Of a DNA stretch of 41,243 nt, positions 16,783 to 24,127 are shown piece after piece; position 1 is the first letter of the stretch; every line of letters starts with the position of its first letter. Origin of the DNA: Alphaproteobacteria bacterium (lineage in GTDB: Bacteria > Pseudomonadota > Alphaproteobacteria > GCA-2731375); contig JASLLM010000010.1 of assembly GCA_030747035.1 (NCBI GenBank), forward strand, positions 1 to 41,243. Direction: 5' to 3'. The notes beneath the pieces were generated by a model. The model searched no databases. It was not told the origin of the DNA and was given only the letters and a program-made list of their open reading frames with translations. The position numbers and the translations under genes are program-made.

Positions 16783-18486
16783 ATGAGCGCTGATGACGCA
16801 AGCGACGGGGGTCAACTCTCACCCGAAACCTTGAGCGCCCAGGCCCTGGGCCGGGTTGATCCCGTCAGCAAGGCGCTGATCCCATCCCTGCATCCATCGA
16901 CCACGTTCGAGCGTGACGCCGATGGCGGCTATAGCTCCGGGCGGGGCTATGCCCGGCCGCACAATCCCACCTATGACGAAGCGGAGGATCTGTTGGCCGC
17001 CTTGGAAGGCGGGCACGACTGTTTGCTGTTCGCCTCGGGCATGGCGGCGGCGAACGCGGTGTTTCAGGCGCTGTTGCCCGGCGATCACGTGGTCGCGCCC
17101 AAGGTGATGTATTGGGCCCTGCGCAAATGGCTGGTGGATTTCGCCGTCTCCTGGGGCCTGGAGGTGGAGTTCGTCGATTGCCATGACACGGCCGCCCTGG
17201 CTGCCGCCATGCGGCCGGGCAAAACGCGATTGGTCTGGCTGGAAACGCCGGCCAATCCCATGTGGACCATCACCGATATCAGGGCGGCGGCGGAGATCGC
17301 CCATGCCGCCGGCGCCCGCGTCGCGGTGGACAGCACGGTTGCCTCGCCGGTGTTGACCCGGCCCCTTGCGCTCGGCGCCGATCTGGTGGTGCATTCGGCC
17401 TCCAAATATCTGAACGGCCATGGCGATGTTCTGGCCGGCGCCGTTGTCGGCGCCAGGGACGATGGCCTGTGGCAGCGTATCCGTGCCTGGCGGCGCGACG
17501 GCGGTGCCATGCTGGGCACCTTGGAGGCCTGGTTGCTGCAGCGGGGCATGCGGACACTGTTCGTACGCGTCGCCCGTTGCTCCGAGAGTGCTTTGACCAT
17601 CGCGGAACATTTTTCGGGCCATCGGCGTATCTCCCACGTGCTCTATCCCGGCCTGCCGGGGCATCCCGGCCATGATATCGCCGCGCGCCAGATGCAGGGC
17701 GGCTTCGGCGGCATGCTGTCATTGCGGATCAGGGGCGGGGAGGACGCGGCCATGGCCGTCGCGGCATCGGTCAAGGTATTCAAGCGCGCGACCTCCCTTG
17801 GCGGTGTGGAAAGTTTGATCGAACACCGCGCCAGTATCGAAGGGCCGGCGACGCCGGTGCCGTGGGATCTGTTGCGCCTGTCCATCGGTCTGGAAAGCCC
17901 GGCCGATTTGATCGCCGATCTGGAGCAGGCGCTGGCCGCCGTGCCCGGCGAAATTCCGGCCGACGAAATTGACGAGACTGCCGAGGATACTTCTCTATCG
18001 CCCATCGAGGCCATTTTGGAAAATCATGTGGCGGCCATGGTCCGTGAACGGGGCGGCGATCTGAAAGTCCGGTCCTTTGCGGATCATGCGCTGGTGCTGG
18101 AGATGGTCGGCTCGCCAGGTGCGGCGCTCCCGCTCGAGAGCATGATCGCCAATACCGTGCGCCACTACATGCCAGAGGTGCGGGAGGTGCGCGTCCTGGC
18201 TGGGTCGGATGACCCGGTTTCCAGCGACGTTCAGAGCCTGCTGGATGAGGTGATCAATCCCGCCATTGCCGCCCATGGCGGTAATGTCGTCATGGACAGG
18301 CTTGAAGGCGGCACCCTGTTCCTGCTTTTCGAAGGCGGTTGCCAGGGCTGTGCCATGGCCGAATTGACCCTGCGCCAGGGTATCGAGCCGATCCTGGCGA
18401 AACAGATAACGGAGATTGTCGCGGTGGTCGACGAAACCGACCACGCCGCCGGCACGGCCCCTTATTTCAAGACCAAGAAAACCTGA
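16783..18486 (+). CDS. Fusion: cystathionine gamma-synthase/lyase-type PLP enzyme plus two NifU-like domains
   Basis: Residues 1 to about 395 are a Cys/Met-metabolism PLP enzyme. Visible motifs are YARPHNPTYDEAEDLLAALE, quoted in part as RPHNPTYDEAE, then LFASGMAAANAVF and LETPANPMW. The PLP lysine K208 lies in HSASKYLNGHGD. Residues about 410-475 resemble a NifU C-terminal domain (ILENHVAAMVRERGGDLKV) but lack the CxxC. Residues about 485-555 are an intact NifU-type scaffold (VINPAIAAHGGNV, then FEGGCQGCAMAELTLRQGIE) with C520-x2-C523. NifU domains hand iron-sulfur clusters to clients. Cystathionine-type enzymes can cleave cysteine to give sulfide, so a sulfur-supply or cluster-assembly role is plausible but inferred. 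The reading frame is continuous across both parts. The gene is convergent with the nitrile hydratase-like operon, 16 bp apart. Confidence 0.9.
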   Translation: MSADDASDGGQLSPETLSAQALGRVDPVSKALIPSLHPSTTFERDADGGYSSGRGYARPHNPTYDEAEDLLAALEGGHDCLLFASGMAAANAVFQALLPGDHVVAPKVMYWALRKWLVDFAVSWGLEVEFVDCHDTAALAAAMRPGKTRLVWLETPANPMWTITDIRAAAEIAHAAGARVAVDSTVASPVLTRPLALGADLVVHSASKYLNGHGDVLAGAVVGARDDGLWQRIRAWRRDGGAMLGTLEAWLLQRGMRTLFVRVARCSESALTIAEHFSGHRRISHVLYPGLPGHPGHDIAARQMQGGFGGMLSLRIRGGEDAAMAVAASVKVFKRATSLGGVESLIEHRASIEGPATPVPWDLLRLSIGLESPADLIADLEQALAAVPGEIPADEIDETAEDTSLSPIEAILENHVAAMVRERGGDLKVRSFADHALVLEMVGSPGAALPLESMIANTVRHYMPEVREVRVLAGSDDPVSSDVQSLLDEVINPAIAAHGGNVVMDRLEGGTLFLLFEGGCQGCAMAELTLRQGIEPILAKQITEIVAVVDETDHAAGTAPYFKTKKT

Positions 18487-18502: not shown

Positions 18503-19156
18503 CTACAATTGGTCTAGATAGTCGCGCCAGATACTGAAATTCAGGCTGTCCCGGGCCGGTGCTTCCGGGCCCCAGACCTCCCGTGCCGTGAAACGGACGC
18601 CATAGACCGCCTGTGGGCCGCGCGCCTTGGCCTCTTCCCCATCGCCTTCAACTTCGGGAAAGGTGAAATCGCCCAGGCGGCTGACCACGACACCTCTCCT
18701 GCCGCGCAGAAACAGGGGCAGATGGGCATGGCCGACGGGTTCCACATCACGCACCCGAACTTGATCACCGATGGCGAAATCATCGCCGGGAGTTTCGGCC
18801 GCCCGCATCTCGGCCAGCTTGGCGTCTAGCTCATCCCGGCTCAGCAGGCCTTTTTCCACCAGCAGGTTTTCGCAGGCCGTCTGCCACAGGACGGCGTAAT
18901 TCTTGTTGATGCTCTTGCCGTCGCCGCTCAGCACCGCCTCGGCCGCCTCCGCCTCGGCGTCGGAAAGGTCGTAATGTCCGGGTGGCGAAATCTGCACGCT
19001 GAATTTGTCGACCCATTCCGGCCAGTCGTAATGTCCCTTTTCGTGCAGCTTCATGACCATGGCGATGCTGCGCGCCGCGGCCAGATGGGCATACTTTTCG
19101 CCGTCATCCTCCCGGATCAACTGTGCCAGATCCACCTCGTCCTGTGCATCACTCAT
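18503..19156 (-). CDS. Nitrile hydratase accessory-type protein fused to beta-like C-terminal domain (second copy)
   Basis: The 217-residue protein has an N-terminal helical half. It resembles nitrile hydratase activator proteins (ARSIAMVMKLHEKGHYDWPEWVDKF, quoted in part as MKLHEKGHYDWPEW) and ends with LLVEKGLLSRDELDAKLAEM. The C-terminal half is the SH3-like barrel of nitrile hydratase beta (FAIGDQVRVRDVEPVGHAHLP, quoted in part, then FTAREVWGPEAPARDSLNF). At the stretch read as GHTRLPRYVRG in true beta subunits it has GHAHLPLFLRG, so both conserved arginines are replaced. That argues for a chaperone or activator rather than a catalytic subunit. ATG 19156 follows GGAG by seven bases. It is the last gene of the six-gene operon, 17 bp after its paralogue. 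Confidence 0.8.
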   Translation of the reverse strand: MSDAQDEVDLAQLIREDDGEKYAHLAAARSIAMVMKLHEKGHYDWPEWVDKFSVQISPPGHYDLSDAEAEAAEAVLSGDGKSINKNYAVLWQTACENLLVEKGLLSRDELDAKLAEMRAAETPGDDFAIGDQVRVRDVEPVGHAHLPLFLRGRRGVVVSRLGDFTFPEVEGDGEEAKARGPQAVYGVRFTAREVWGPEAPARDSLNFSIWRDYLDQL

Positions 19157-19173: not shown

Positions 19174-19890
19174 TTAAGCCGGTTGCAACTGGTAATCCCA
19201 AAGATTGAAGTGAACGTTGTGGCTGCCTTCCCCCCAGATATCGGAAGCCGCGAACTGTACGCAATAGACGTGCTGCAGGATGTCGGTGTCGGCGTGGTCA
19301 TGATTGTGAGCGTGATCGTGTCCGTGACTTACCATTTCAGGGAACATGTACAGACCCTTGTCGCTCTCCACCTCGCCCGTTATGCCGCGCAGGTAAAGCG
19401 GCAGATGGGTATGGCCTTCCCGTTTGATCTCGCGCACCGTCACCCGCTGGCCGGCTTGGAAGCGTGGGCCCCCGCGCTCCGCCTTGGCGAAGGCGGCGAC
19501 GCGTGCATCCAACTCGGCCTTGGGCACCAGATGCATGGCGTCCAACAACTGCTCGGCCGCCGCCTGCCAATAATGGTAATACCTCGCACCGTCACTTTCG
19601 CATTCGGCCAAAAAGCGGCTGTAGTTCGCGCCCGCATGGCTCTCGTCCGCCGCTTCGTCCGCGGGCTTGTCATCGCCGCCGAAATGTCCGGGCGCCTGGA
19701 TGTGATAACCCAGATAGTCGTCCCATTCAGCCCAGCTGTAATGGCCGTCCTGGTACAGGGACATCACCATGGCAAAGGTATGACCCTGCCAGGGTTCGTC
19801 GAAGACCGGATCGCCGCGATCGCGCGGCAGGGCGGCACCGGCCTGTTGTTCGGGCACGGCCAGGTCCGGTACCGTCAGCATCTTACGCAT
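19174..19890 (-). CDS. Nitrile hydratase accessory-type protein fused to beta-like C-terminal domain, with His-rich insert
   Basis: This 238-residue protein begins with an activator-like part, FDEPWQGHTFAMVMSLYQDG with YSWAEWDDYLG, followed by a helical segment ending AELDARVAAFAKAE. The C-terminal barrel contains FQAGQRVTVREI and GHTHLPLYLRG. As in its neighbour, the two arginines of GHTRLPRYVRG are His and Leu. An alternating His segment, HGHDHAHNHDH (H189 to H199), is inserted in the barrel. Such stretches bind Ni, Co or Zn in UreE, HypB and CobW proteins. A role in delivering cobalt to the alpha subunit is therefore a good hypothesis. ATG 19890 overlaps the stop of the beta C-half gene. 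ATG 19881 is a possible shorter start. Confidence 0.82.
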   Translation of the reverse strand: MRKMLTVPDLAVPEQQAGAALPRDRGDPVFDEPWQGHTFAMVMSLYQDGHYSWAEWDDYLGYHIQAPGHFGGDDKPADEAADESHAGANYSRFLAECESDGARYYHYWQAAAEQLLDAMHLVPKAELDARVAAFAKAERGGPRFQAGQRVTVREIKREGHTHLPLYLRGITGEVESDKGLYMFPEMVSHGHDHAHNHDHADTDILQHVYCVQFAASDIWGEGSHNVHFNLWDYQLQPA

Positions 19891-20236
19891 GGTCGAGATA
19901 ATCTTCCCAAAGGTCGATATTCAGGCAGTCCGTGGCCGGTGCGTCGCCACCCCAAAGCTCCCGGGCCTCGAAACGGATGGAGTAATTGTGCTGCGGCTGA
20001 TCGCCGTCTCCCGCGACGCGGGCGTCAGGCAAATGGAAGACGCCGTTGTCACGCCGCACCACGCCTTCCTTACCGCGGACATAGCGGGGCAGACGGGTAT
20101 GGCCGGTCGGATTGATGTTGCGCGCCAGGACTCGGTCGCCGGGTTTGAATTTAGGCTCGATGTCCATTTTCAGGCGTACCGCGCCGGCTTTCTGGTACAG
20201 CCGGTTTACAACCTCGAGATCGACTTTACGGGTCAT
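19883..20236 (-). CDS. Nitrile hydratase beta subunit, C-terminal half as a separate protein
   Basis: The 117-residue protein corresponds to the SH3-like C-terminal barrel of nitrile hydratase beta. It has FKPGDRVLARNINPTGHTRLP, quoted in part, RYVRGKEGVV, and FEARELWGGDAPATDCLNIDLWEDYL, quoted in part as FEARELWGG. The arginines of GHTRLPRYVRG are present, as expected for the residue that hydrogen-bonds the modified cysteine claw in the alpha subunit. It lacks the helical N-terminal half, which is encoded upstream. Thiocyanate hydrolase and toyocamycin nitrile hydratase are known three-subunit enzymes with such a split. ATG 20236 overlaps the previous stop as ATGA, and its stop overlaps the next start by eight bases. 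Confidence 0.88.
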   Translation of the reverse strand: MTRKVDLEVVNRLYQKAGAVRLKMDIEPKFKPGDRVLARNINPTGHTRLPRYVRGKEGVVRRDNGVFHLPDARVAGDGDQPQHNYSIRFEARELWGGDAPATDCLNIDLWEDYLDHA

Positions 20237-20544
20237 GATGTCTCTCCGCGCAGATCGGCCAGCCGAGCGTCGAACTCGGCCTGGCTGACCACGCCCTTTT
20301 CCAACAGCAAGGTGATGCTGCCTTCCAGCCAGCGTTCGTAATAGCTCGAGGTCAGATAATATGACGGCTCGATCCGTTCCATGGCGTGGCGGAATTCATC
20401 TAAATTGAAATGCATGCCGGCCAGCAGGGCGCGGGCCAGGGCCAGGGTGCGCCCTTCCCATTCCTCGTGAAAAACCACATCGTCCGATTCCGTTTTGATC
20501 GGGCCCAGACCATGCATGCCGCCCATGTCATGTACACCGTTCAT
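20233..20544 (-). CDS. Nitrile hydratase beta subunit, N-terminal half, second copy
   Basis: This 103-residue protein starts with MNGVHDMGGMHGLGP, the canonical beta N-terminus. It continues with FHEEWEGRTLALARALLAG, FNLDEFRHAMERIEPSYYLTS and YYERWLEGSITLLLEKGVVSQ. The Arg in DEFRH corresponds to the N-half arginine that contacts the active site in known enzymes. It is clearly a paralogue of the preceding gene, at about 60% identity by eye. I use ATG 20544 since it overlaps the preceding stop as ATGA. The track start at 20652 is inside the first copy. Whether both copies enter the same enzyme is unknown. Confidence 0.87.
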   Translation of the reverse strand: MNGVHDMGGMHGLGPIKTESDDVVFHEEWEGRTLALARALLAGMHFNLDEFRHAMERIEPSYYLTSSYYERWLEGSITLLLEKGVVSQAEFDARLADLRGETS

Positions 20545-20864
20545 GCGGGTTCTCCGTTCTGTTCCGTGCTCAGATCGGCCAGCCGGGCGTCCAGTTCCGC
20601 CTGGCTGAACACGCCCTTTTCCAACAGCAAGGTCATGGTACCTTCCAGCCAATGTTCGTAATAGCTTGAGCCCAGATAGTGGGCCGGCGCCATGCGTTCG
20701 ATGGCATAGCGGAATTCATCTACGCTGAACTGAAAGCCCGCCATCATCGCATTGACCAGCCCCATGGTCCGCCGCTCCCACTCCTCATGGAATTGCGGCG
20801 CATCCACGGTTTCCATGATCGTGCCGAAACCATGCATGCCGCCCATGTCATGTATGCCGTTCAT
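20541..20864 (-). CDS. Nitrile hydratase beta subunit, N-terminal half, first copy
   Basis: The 107-residue protein begins MNGIHDMGGMHGFG and continues with FHEEWERRTMGLVNAMMAG, FSVDEFRYAIERMAPAHYLGS and YYEHWLEGTMTLLLEKGVFSQ. This is a full N-terminal helical half of nitrile hydratase beta, ending where the barrel domain would begin. A strong GGGAGG lies seven bases before ATG 20864, and the gene begins 12 bp after the alpha stop. Its C-terminal partner is encoded two genes downstream. HDMGG and YYEHWLEG match ordinary beta subunits closely, and of the two copies this one looks nearer to the family norm. Confidence 0.88.
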   Translation of the reverse strand: MNGIHDMGGMHGFGTIMETVDAPQFHEEWERRTMGLVNAMMAGFQFSVDEFRYAIERMAPAHYLGSSYYEHWLEGTMTLLLEKGVFSQAELDARLADLSTEQNGEPA

Positions 20865-20876
20865 GGCGAGGCCTCC

Positions 20877-21479
20877 CTAATCCGGTGGCGCCACCTTGGT
20901 GACGCCGATCATCGAGTCTCGCGTCACCAGTTTGGCCAGGGCCTCGGCATCCAGGCCGTCCGTCCCCGTGGGCCGTTCGGGCAGCACCATGTAGCGCAGC
21001 TCGGCATTGGAGTCCCAGACCCGTACTTCTGTATCGGCGCCGATTTCGGTGCCGAATTCCGCCAATACACCGCGCGGATCGGAGGCCGCCCGAGAGCGGA
21101 ATGGGGCCGATTTATACCATACGGGGGGCAGCCCCAGGGTTGCCCAAGGGAAGCAGGAACAGAGCGTACAGACAACGATGTTATGTACCTGAGGGGTATT
21201 TTCGACTACCACCATGTCTTCGCCCTGCACCGCGTCGAACCCCATGTCCGCGATCGCACCGGTGCCGTCCTGCAGCAGCCAGGCCTTGTATTCCGGATCC
21301 GTCCAGGCCCGCGCCACCACCTGCGCCCCGTTCCAGGGACCAAGGCGGTTTTCGAACATATCGATCAGGGCATCGATGGCGCTGCTTTCGACCAGGCCTT
21401 TTTCCAGCAGCAAGGATTCCATGGCCTTGACCCGCAAGGCCACCTCCGAGTCCGGTCCAGGAATGCCGTCTGAGCTCAT
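20877..21479 (-). CDS. nthA: Nitrile hydratase alpha subunit (cobalt-type)
   Basis: The 200-residue protein matches the usual alpha length. The metal claw VCTLCSC (C104, C107, C109) is the cobalt-type form, since iron enzymes usually have Ser in place of Thr. It is followed by [15 protein letters not shown] and [11 protein letters not shown] as in the family. The N-terminal helices ([11 protein letters not shown]) are also typical. Nitrile hydratases convert nitriles to amides in the cytoplasm, and the related thiocyanate hydrolase gamma subunit shares this claw, so substrate identity is open. I choose ATG 21479 (MSSDGIPG). ATG 21494 is five codons upstream and also possible, while the track start lies in the divergent gene. 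It is the first gene of the six-gene operon. No amidase or aldoxime dehydratase gene is in the window. Confidence 0.92.
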
Positions 21480-21610: not shown

Positions 21611-22867
21611 ATGACTTTGTCGAGCATGGAAGAACTGAACGAGCCATTGCAGTGGCCGGAACCGGGGGTAACGCGGATTCCCTATCGGGTCTATTCGGAT
21701 CCGGTGATCTACGCGCTGGAGCAGCAGCGGATCTTTCGCGGTCCGGTCTGGAATTTCCTCTGCCTGGAAATCGATATACCAAATTCCGGTGACTACAAGA
21801 CCTCCACGGTCGGTGAAATCCCTATCATCGTCACCCGGGACGACGACGGCGAAATCCACGCCATGGTCAACCGTTGCCCCCACAAGGGCGCCCTGGTCTG
21901 CCTGAAGGAGCGCGGCAACGCCAAGATGCTGACCTGCATCTATCATTCCTGGTCCTTCGACATGGCCGGCAAGCTAAAGGGCATCGCCTTCCGCAACGGT
22001 CTGGGCGGCAAGGGCGGGTTGCCCAAGGAATTCGATCCGGAGAAACATGGTCTGGAGCTGTTGCGCATCGAGGTTTTTTGCGGCCTGGTCTTCGGCACCT
22101 TTTCCGAGGCGACGCCGTCTGTGGAAAGTTACCTTGGCCAGCCCATGTCTAAGTTCATCCGCCGCAACTTGGGCAGGCCGCTAAAGCCCCTGGGCATGCA
22201 CAGTCAGATCATCCACAATAATTGGAAACTGTATGCCGAGAATGTGCGGGATTCCTATCACGCCACATTGCTGCATACGTTTTACACCACCTTCAAGATC
22301 AACCGCCTGGACATGGATGGCGGCATCGTCCTGGCCGAGGACAAATGGCATCACATCAGTTATGCCAAGCGCGAGACCTTCGAGGAGGCGGAGGAATACC
22401 AGCGGGACAAGATCCACGCGGCGCAATACGATTCCCACCTTGAAGGGCCGCATCTCTTGAATGCCTGGAACGAATTCGATGACGGCATCACCCATTCCAT
22501 CCAGGCGATTTTTCCCAACCTGGCGATCCAGTTCACCCTGAATTCCCTGGCCGTGCGTTTCTTCGTCCCCCGAGGCGTCGATAAGACGGAATTGTTCTGG
22601 TTCTATGTCGGCTACGAAGACGATACGGAAGAAAAAACGGCCATGCGGGTGATGCAGGGCAATCTGACCGGCGCCGCCGGCCTGGTCTCGTTGGAGGACG
22701 GCTGCATCAACGAATTCGTCCAGCGCGGCACCCACGGCAGCGAAGGGTCAATGGGCCTGGCCGAGATGGGCGGTGGGTCGGTGGAATCCTCTGACAGCAG
22801 CCGCGCCACCGAGGCCGCGATCCGCGGCTTCTGGACCGGCTATCGCCGGATCATGGAGTTCGATTGA
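21611..22867 (+). CDS. Rieske aromatic ring-hydroxylating dioxygenase, large (alpha) subunit
   Basis: The 418-residue protein has the Rieske [2Fe-2S] ligands C89-P-H91 and C109-x2-H112 (CPHKG and CIYHSW). The mononuclear iron site lies in [20 protein letters not shown], with the Asp and the two His of D-x2-H-x4-H. The beginning ([17 protein letters not shown]) and the linker resemble AndAc and salicylate 5-hydroxylase large subunits from memory, so an aromatic carboxylate or similar ring substrate is likely. It works with the small subunit encoded next and needs a ferredoxin and a reductase, neither of which is in the window. The gene is followed one base later by the small-subunit gene. It diverges from the nitrile hydratase-like operon. 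Confidence 0.92.
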
Positions 22868-22868
22868 T

Positions 22869-23324
22869 ATGGAGGCGATCGAGGAGTTGATCACCGCTTA
22901 TGCCCACGATATCGACGACGGCGTGTTGGACGGCTGGCCCGAATACTTTACCGAGGACGGCAGCTACACCGTGCTGACCCGCGAGAACCTGGCCCAGGAC
23001 CTGCCCATGGGCATCATGTATTGCCAGGGCCGGGGCATGATGGCGGATCGTATCAAGGCCATGCAGACGGCCAATATTTTTGAGGCCCATACCTATTGCC
23101 ATCTGCTGGGCCGCAGCCGGATTGAGCCGGATGGCGATGGCCGATATCGCGCCCGCACCAATTTCAACGTCATCCGCACCATGCAGGACGGCGCCTCGGA
23201 AATGTTCGCGGTGGGCAAGTATCTCGACGTGATCGAGGTCCGAGACGGCAAACCGCTGTTCAGGGAACGCAGGGTGGTGTTGGAATCCCGCCGTGTCGAT
23301 ATTCTTTTGGTCTATCCGTTGTAG
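22869..23324 (+). CDS. Aromatic ring-hydroxylating dioxygenase, small (beta) subunit
   Basis: This 151-residue NTF2/scytalone-dehydratase-fold protein has the sequence course of ring-hydroxylating dioxygenase beta subunits. It runs DDGVLDGWPEYFTEDGSYTVL, quoted in part as LDGWPEYFTEDGSY, then CQGRGMMADRI, THCHLL-like TYCHLLGRSRI, and the terminal FRERRVVLESRRVD. It is somewhat shorter than many beta subunits. It has no catalytic metal and supports the alpha-subunit hexamer. ATG 22869 is one base after the alpha stop, and the longer track start is inside the alpha gene. Confidence 0.9.
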   Translation: MEAIEELITAYAHDIDDGVLDGWPEYFTEDGSYTVLTRENLAQDLPMGIMYCQGRGMMADRIKAMQTANIFEAHTYCHLLGRSRIEPDGDGRYRARTNFNVIRTMQDGASEMFAVGKYLDVIEVRDGKPLFRERRVVLESRRVDILLVYPL

Positions 23325-23335
23325 AGGAGCCGGAC

Positions 23336-24127
23336 GTGTCTCTGGACAGCTATTACAAGGATCACTGGGTCGAAATTGAGCCCGAGCGGCTGGAGCGTTA
23401 CGAGGCGCAATTCATCCTTGGCAATCGCGGCGACAGGTTGCTGGCGCCGGCCGATATCGCGGCCGAGCAGGTGGTGGCCGACTACGGCTGTGGCCCGGGC
23501 TATCTATCGGTGGAGCTGGCTAACCGCGTGGGTCCGATGGGTCATGTGCATGCTTTTGACATCAACGCCGATTTTGTCGAACGCACCAGAAAACGGGTGG
23601 CTGACGAGGGCCTGGCGGAGCGGGTCACGGTAACCCATCTGGAAAGCGATATGCTGCCCCTGGATGATGACTGTCTGGACCGCCTGGTGATCAAGAATGT
23701 CCTGGTCTATGTGGATGATCCCCTCGCCAGCCTACGTGAATTCCGCCGGGCGGTCAGGCCGGGCGGCAAGGTGCATGCCATCGACAGCGATTTCTACATG
23801 GCGGCGTTTGATCCCATTGACATCGACGATTGGCGCCATGTTCTGGATGCGGGCATCCATGCCTTCCGCACCCCGGCCATCGGTCGCAAGATGTACGGCA
23901 TCGCCCTGGGTGCCGGGTTCAGCGAGGTTGCGGTGGAGGTCGTCGCCGTGCCGGACTTCACCGGCCGCATGCTCAGCTTTATCATTAACACCGCCGGCTA
24001 TGCCCGCGAAGGCGGCCGGCATGACGAGGCGGTGGTTAGCCGCGTTGTGGAGGTGGCCAGCAGGGCAGTCGAGGAGGGCACATTCTTCGCCCTGAACCCG
24101 CAGTTCCTCGTGACGGCGACGGTGTAG
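23336..24127 (+). CDS. Class I SAM-dependent methyltransferase
   Basis: The 263-residue protein has motif I VVADYGCGPGYLSVELA and the acidic residue after strand 2 (AFDINADFVE). A post-I region (LPLDDDCLDRLVIKNVLVYV, quoted in part) and RPGGKVHAID follow, as in UbiE/Methyltransf_11 proteins. It uses a GTG start at 23336, seven bases after GAGGAG. The substrate is unknown. Position in the Rieske operon suggests O- or N-methylation of a hydroxylated aromatic or a pathway intermediate. The C-terminal third (from about residue 150) has no motif that I recognise. Confidence 0.88.
   Translation: MSLDSYYKDHWVEIEPERLERYEAQFILGNRGDRLLAPADIAAEQVVADYGCGPGYLSVELANRVGPMGHVHAFDINADFVERTRKRVADEGLAERVTVTHLESDMLPLDDDCLDRLVIKNVLVYVDDPLASLREFRRAVRPGGKVHAIDSDFYMAAFDPIDIDDWRHVLDAGIHAFRTPAIGRKMYGIALGAGFSEVAVEVVAVPDFTGRMLSFIINTAGYAREGGRHDEAVVSRVVEVASRAVEEGTFFALNPQFLVTATV

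Follow-up and report, generated by a model that had tools for sequence, protein, structure and literature searches.

The two arginines of the nitrile hydratase (NHase) beta subunit at positions 52 and 157 form hydrogen bonds to the oxidised cysteines of the claw and are required for activity (PMC7587978), and salt bridges from these same two arginines have been proposed to power subunit swapping (PMC7193024). Swapping chaperones include P14K and NhlE; in Streptomyces canus a beta half itself takes the chaperone role and there is no accessory gene (PMC7329996). AnhE of Rhodococcus jostii RHA1 is a cobalt metallochaperone described as not being a swapping chaperone (PMC3680314), and the His-rich linker of the eukaryotic NHase has been reported to be dispensable for metal incorporation (PMC3323583, PMC7193024). 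Whether cobalt reaches NHase, an industrial catalyst, by way of a swapping chaperone or a metal carrier is debated.

An NHase operon with two accessory-beta fusions

The window, which is the whole stretch of 41,243 nucleotides analysed here from an alphaproteobacterial contig, carries on its minus strand an NHase operon in the order alpha-betaN1-betaN2-betaC-fusA-fusB. The alpha subunit (20877..21479, minus strand) has a Co-type VCTLCSC claw, exceeds the TIGR01323 cut-off and has no His run at its N-terminus; family models and comparison place it nearest to Co-type NHase, not thiocyanate hydrolase. The beta subunit is split into an N-terminal half, betaN2 (20233..20544, minus strand), in which Arg52 is present, and a C-terminal barrel, betaC (19883..20236, minus strand), in which Arg157 is present within GHTRLPRY. 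The gene betaN1 (20541..20864, minus strand) is a second copy of the N-terminal half, at 65% identity, and likewise has Arg52; this duplication (window 20233-20864), with Arg52 in both copies, is seen in the window genome and two congeners only. The fifth gene, fusA (19174..19890, minus strand, 238 residues), encodes a TIGR03889 accessory-type N domain joined to a PF02211 NHase beta C-terminal barrel, and is followed by fusB (18503..19156, minus strand), a paralogue of the same architecture that has no His run and has His at the Arg157 position. Adjacent genes from betaN1 through fusA overlap by 4-8 bases, and relatives have a matching gene order.

Residues 30-74 of fusA match TIGR03889, with a whole-protein score of 53.5 bits that is over the cut-off of 46, and residues 141-235 match PF02211; fusB scores 45.1 bits against TIGR03889, just below the cut-off, or 48 when neighbouring matches are added. 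Both proteins miss the TIGR03888 beta equivalog cut-off of 152.2 bits (fusA 76.5, fusB 90.9). Pfam finds only NHase beta domains in fusA, and the GTPase domain PF02492 is absent, which sets the protein apart from CobW, HypB and UreG. Its genomic context is that of an accessory protein, beside Co-type NHase alpha and beta genes, and an earlier note on this DNA was right to pair it with a Co-type alpha subunit, as fusA is a Co-type NHase accessory/beta fusion adjoining the CTLCSC alpha. A structural model of fusA from a 62-sequence alignment has a mean pLDDT of 75, with ~95 in the barrel strands, and a pTM of 0.60, leaving the packing of the two domains against each other uncertain; it supersedes a model from 12 sequences (pLDDT 52.6) that was too weak. 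Foldseek searches with the model returned NHase beta chains, and the barrel alone also returned thiocyanate hydrolase alpha.

Beyond the window, fusA orthologues are carried by ten congeneric genomes, two other members of the class and one GTDB metagenome-assembled genome. Two congeners have the six-gene operon, and eight have alpha-betaN-betaC-fusA with fusB not found, in a lineage whose genomes are fragmented assemblies searched with four small profiles seeded from few sequences. In locus L038 an unsplit beta is followed by fusA and fusB; this unsplit gene (L038:4322-4975, plus strand) lies in a clade that is otherwise split, its sister L058 included, and reflects either re-fusion or repeated splitting. 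At E <= 1e-25, the fusA alignment matched six of 385 genomes of the class, four of them in this genus and the window's own counted, and in a 399-genome sample of the phylum it matched only the window's own, so the accessory-beta fusion is confined to few lineages. A scan of GTDB contigs with fusA gave 2 loci only, the remaining orthologues coming from whole-genome searches. In the tree, the fusion barrels form one clade (99/95) that contains a fusA clade (99/96) and a fusB clade (98/90), and that adjoins the lineage's beta barrels.

Of the window proteins that were run against Pfam, none beside the operon is a cobalt transporter; the cobalt transporter CbtA is encoded in 13 of 13 genomes searched, and in the window genome it lies away from the operon. 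Divergent from the NHase operon (window 21611-24127, plus strand) are a Rieske dioxygenase pair, with AndAc/AndAd as the nearest models but below cut-off, and a methyltransferase, which are kept beside the operon in L040 and L041 and are a possible clue to the NHase substrate. On the other side (window 16783-18486, plus strand) lies a Cys/Met-metabolism PLP enzyme fused to a C-terminal NifU-like domain (PF01053 and PF01106). The genome also has two more Co-type NHase operons, a canonical alpha-beta-accessory operon and an alpha-beta operon (L007, L008).

Histidine in place of a catalytic arginine

With the P. thermophila beta chain as the reference for both arginines (P0003 Arg48 corresponding to beta-Arg157 and P0005 Arg52 to beta-Arg52), fusA has His162 (19405..19407, minus strand) at the catalytic beta-Arg157 position, reading GHTHLP versus GHTRLP, and Asp57 (19720..19722, minus strand) at or beside the beta-Arg52 position. 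Among ~140 NHase loci, all 19 fusion barrels, which span the window's fusA and fusB together with L038, L040-L049, L058 and L059, have His at the 157 position, and 148 of the 149 beta barrels have Arg there, the one exception being a gap. Each of the 152 beta N domains has Arg52, and no fusion does; the alignment at this position is gapped in 8 of the 19 fusions, and fusA has an invariant WDDYLG there, with no Arg.

Because the fusion barrels form one clade, the change from Arg157 to His is a single evolutionary event that has since been kept, and p-values treating the fusion sequences as independent would overstate it. On these alignments, His at position 157 is a sharper and more conserved feature of the fusions than the His run described below. 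The absence of both arginines fits a swapping chaperone that would release matured alpha to the true beta subunit. We also considered fusA as a catalytic beta subunit, which was rejected since Arg52 and Arg157 are both missing.

A histidine-rich loop of variable length

The His run HGHDHAHNHDH (19294..19326, minus strand; fusA residues 189-199) lies in the loop FPEMVSHGHDHAHNHDHADTDI (19279..19344, minus strand; residues 183-204), between strands 171-182 and 205-214. The earlier note had described six His at every second position, inserted in a loop of the barrel of one fusion protein only, and all of this was borne out. Translation of the open reading frame gives the alternating pattern from H189 to H199; residues 191-198, mostly with pLDDT <50, lie between two model strands, in a loop that is a ~10-residue insertion relative to ordinary beta barrels; and no 12-residue stretch of fusB contains more than 2 His, nor does the barrel of any available fusB orthologue have a His run. 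The run does not arise from composition by chance, an origin rejected since fusA, although His-rich overall (18 of 238 residues), gave HxHxHxHxHxH in 0 of 20,000 shuffled versions of its sequence. No further HxHxHxH occurs in the window in any of the six frames.

In relatives, conservation of the run, which the earlier note had proposed as its check, held in part: the loop is kept in all 14 fusA proteins, but three of them have only HGH in operons that are intact, which goes part of the way to the refutation that the note had named, homologues without the run. In each of the 14, the window protein included, the loop sits before LQHV(Y/F), and it contains 2-10 His overall, with at least three in 11 of the 14. 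In the window clade the counts are 6 for the window, 9 for L040, 6 for L041, 3 for L038, 4 for L058 and 3 for L059, and in the other clade they are, for L042-L049 in order, 5, 5, 10, 4, 2, 5, 2 and 2. The three orthologues with only HGH (L046, L048 and L049) have alpha, beta and fusA all intact. Since some relatives have almost lost it, the His loop is probably useful and not essential. Ten of the 19 fusion barrels, every one of them fusA, contain HxHxH, compared with a single one of the 149 beta barrels, which has it at another turn.

Codons were read for 12 of the fusA loops, L058 and L059 being read as protein, and in orthologues with codons read the loop is 12-30 residues long. The His positions vary only between CAC and CAT, and the intervening residues are D, G, A, N, S, V or E. 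The repetitive CAYGAY codons suggest that loop length changes by slippage, and we read the pattern as loose selection for His content rather than for a precise site, an account that rests on codon inspection of the 12 loops.

The same repeats admit another explanation, in which the loop is merely permissive, a CAYGAY hexamer expanding and contracting by slippage at an 'AHGxGE' site with no metal function. The wide range of lengths and His counts, repeats such as CATGATCACGATCACGAT in L040 and the three orthologues with only HGH all speak for it, as does the frequency of 'AHGxGE', which places one His in the same loop of many sampled beta barrels. Yet none of the 149 beta barrels has expanded this loop into a His run, the His codons in fusA are always CAC or CAT even as the intervening residues change freely, and some His content is retained in both clades of the tree; we therefore consider a functionless loop rather unlikely, though a reading to be taken seriously.

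A search of the whole window genome (4.3 Mb in 351 contigs, 85% complete) for DNA that could encode HxHxHxHxH gave 23 matches with overlaps counted, versus 1 in a reversed control. Four further matches were read in a CbiX cobaltochelatase, a CobW GTPase, ZnuA and an ABC ATPase, and a fifth stretch has no open reading frame with the motif; on the five other matches read, a motif of this type, where translated, tends to belong to a metal protein of the organism. The CbiX (L218:665-1804, plus strand) has a long His tail, and the CobW GTPase (L220:1094-2023, minus strand) has HDHGHNHNHAH. Given that the same type of motif is on CbiX, CobW, ZnuA and the ABC ATPase, metal binding is the natural reading of the run. 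The fusA loop is likely to hold cobalt or a similar metal.

Runs of alternating His do not select for a particular metal. The loop could bind Zn(II) or Ni(II), serving as a buffer or as a structural or regulatory site, with no cobalt delivered to alpha, and the presence of the same motif on ZnuA, a zinc protein, and on the ABC ATPase of this genome is in keeping with such a role. The operon's only known metal client is the Co-type alpha, which argues against it, and we judge this explanation unlikely.

His-rich segments are not unusual in NHase systems. At least 4 His per 12 residues were found in 16 of 122 distinct alpha N-termini, whose start was guessed as the first upstream Met, and in 8 of 126 accessory C-tails. 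His-rich alpha N-termini occur in L093 (for example MSGHDHDHHHHDHHHDHDHHH), L137, L144, L153, L199 and others, and His-rich accessory C-tails in L061, L062, L105, L118, L135 and L169; a stand-alone accessory tail of this kind is HAHDHHHHDDHEHHHHGHAAK, from Agrobacterium plasmid pAtAF1_95, and the accessory protein in L062 is from Agrobacterium. The idea that each NHase operon has exactly one His-rich segment was rejected: among 133 loci with both alpha and accessory genes, the segment is at the alpha N-terminus in 14, in the accessory tail in 8 and in both in 0, as expected by chance (p = 0.40).

A putative maturation chaperone and its described counterparts

The reading we favour, with somewhat better than even confidence, is that fusA is a lineage-specific maturation chaperone of Co-type NHase that releases finished alpha and has an auxiliary, metal-collecting His loop. 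According to this model, fusA, built from a P14K-like N domain and a barrel that would descend from the beta-subunit barrel, would bind cobalt-free alpha roughly as the beta subunit does. Lacking the arginines at beta-52 and beta-157, it would place no clamp on the oxidised cysteines of finished alpha, which would then pass from fusA to the true split beta subunit. The His loop, predicted to lie beside the alpha-binding surface, may act as an auxiliary weak site that collects Co(II) (or Zn or Ni), raising the local concentration for loading, and would help loading without being strictly required. Metal binding and delivery by the loop are plausible on this analysis. In support of this reading are a TIGR03889 score over cut-off and PF02211 in one protein, a tight operon with an order shared with relatives, the arginine loss, the single fusion-barrel clade beside the lineage's beta barrels, the loops with at least three His (11/14), the rarity of HxHxH in beta barrels, the constancy of the His codons, the metal proteins of this genome with the same type of motif and CbtA in every genome searched (13/13); against it are the HGH-only orthologues with intact genes, the His17 of Monosiga, reported as dispensable, the repetitive codons that also fit slippage and the uncertain domain packing of the monomer model.

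In a more elaborate version, fusA is a decoy beta subunit that would relay cobalt through two stations: the loop would capture Co(II), the His at beta-157, which would face the alpha claw, would pass it on, and the missing clamp would free oxidised alpha; we regard this as doubtful. The match of both domains to NHase beta families and the Foldseek hits to NHase beta chains might suggest that fusA and fusB serve instead as alternative structural beta subunits in the mature enzyme. This is very unlikely, as both catalytic arginines are absent, the N domain scores as accessory, the beta equivalog is missed (76.5 vs 152.2 bits) and the operon already has a complete split beta with both arginines. 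As a putative chaperone that is beta-like, has lost both clamping arginines and varies naturally in loop length, fusA offers a direct test, in one small protein, of both the swapping and the metal-carrier ideas.

A metal-binding NHase maturation protein had been thought new in the earlier note, which does not stand: AnhE was already published, a His-rich linker is known too, and 8 of the 126 sampled accessory proteins have a His-rich C-tail. What is new, as far as we searched, is the placement of the segment in the barrel loop of a beta-like putative chaperone; a search of the literature for histidine in NHase accessory proteins, with most subscription journals outside its coverage, found nothing.

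The N domain of fusA is of the same family (TIGR03889) as NhlE, NhhG and P14K, and like them it is encoded after alpha and beta of a Co-type NHase; like most sampled accessory proteins, fusA and fusB have no Arg at beta-52. Unlike stand-alone accessory proteins, which have no barrel, fusA adds a beta-type barrel in which His takes the place of Arg157, and its His-rich segment is in that barrel rather than in a C-tail. With the NHase beta subunit (TIGR03888; 3qyg, 1ire) it shares the two-domain order, the barrel family and a grouping with the beta barrels of its lineage, but it differs in lacking Arg52 and Arg157, in having the His loop and in falling below the beta equivalog cut-off. The split N and C halves of the window's beta subunit resemble AnhD/AnhE of Streptomyces canus, the plasmid operon of Aminobacter MSH1 and thiocyanate hydrolase; in Aminobacter MSH1 the accessory protein stands alone and has a His-rich tail, whereas in the window dedicated fusions appear to take the accessory role. 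UreE, HypB, CobW/COG0523 and the CbiX tail have the same type of motif in other families, and fusA has no GTPase domain. The alpha/beta-fused opisthokont NHase of Monosiga (17 His) likewise has a His-rich segment within an NHase system, but there it is the linker of a catalytic chain, while in fusA it is a loop of a predicted maturation protein. Set beside fusA by its published description, AnhE of R. jostii RHA1 is an NHase maturation protein that handles cobalt.
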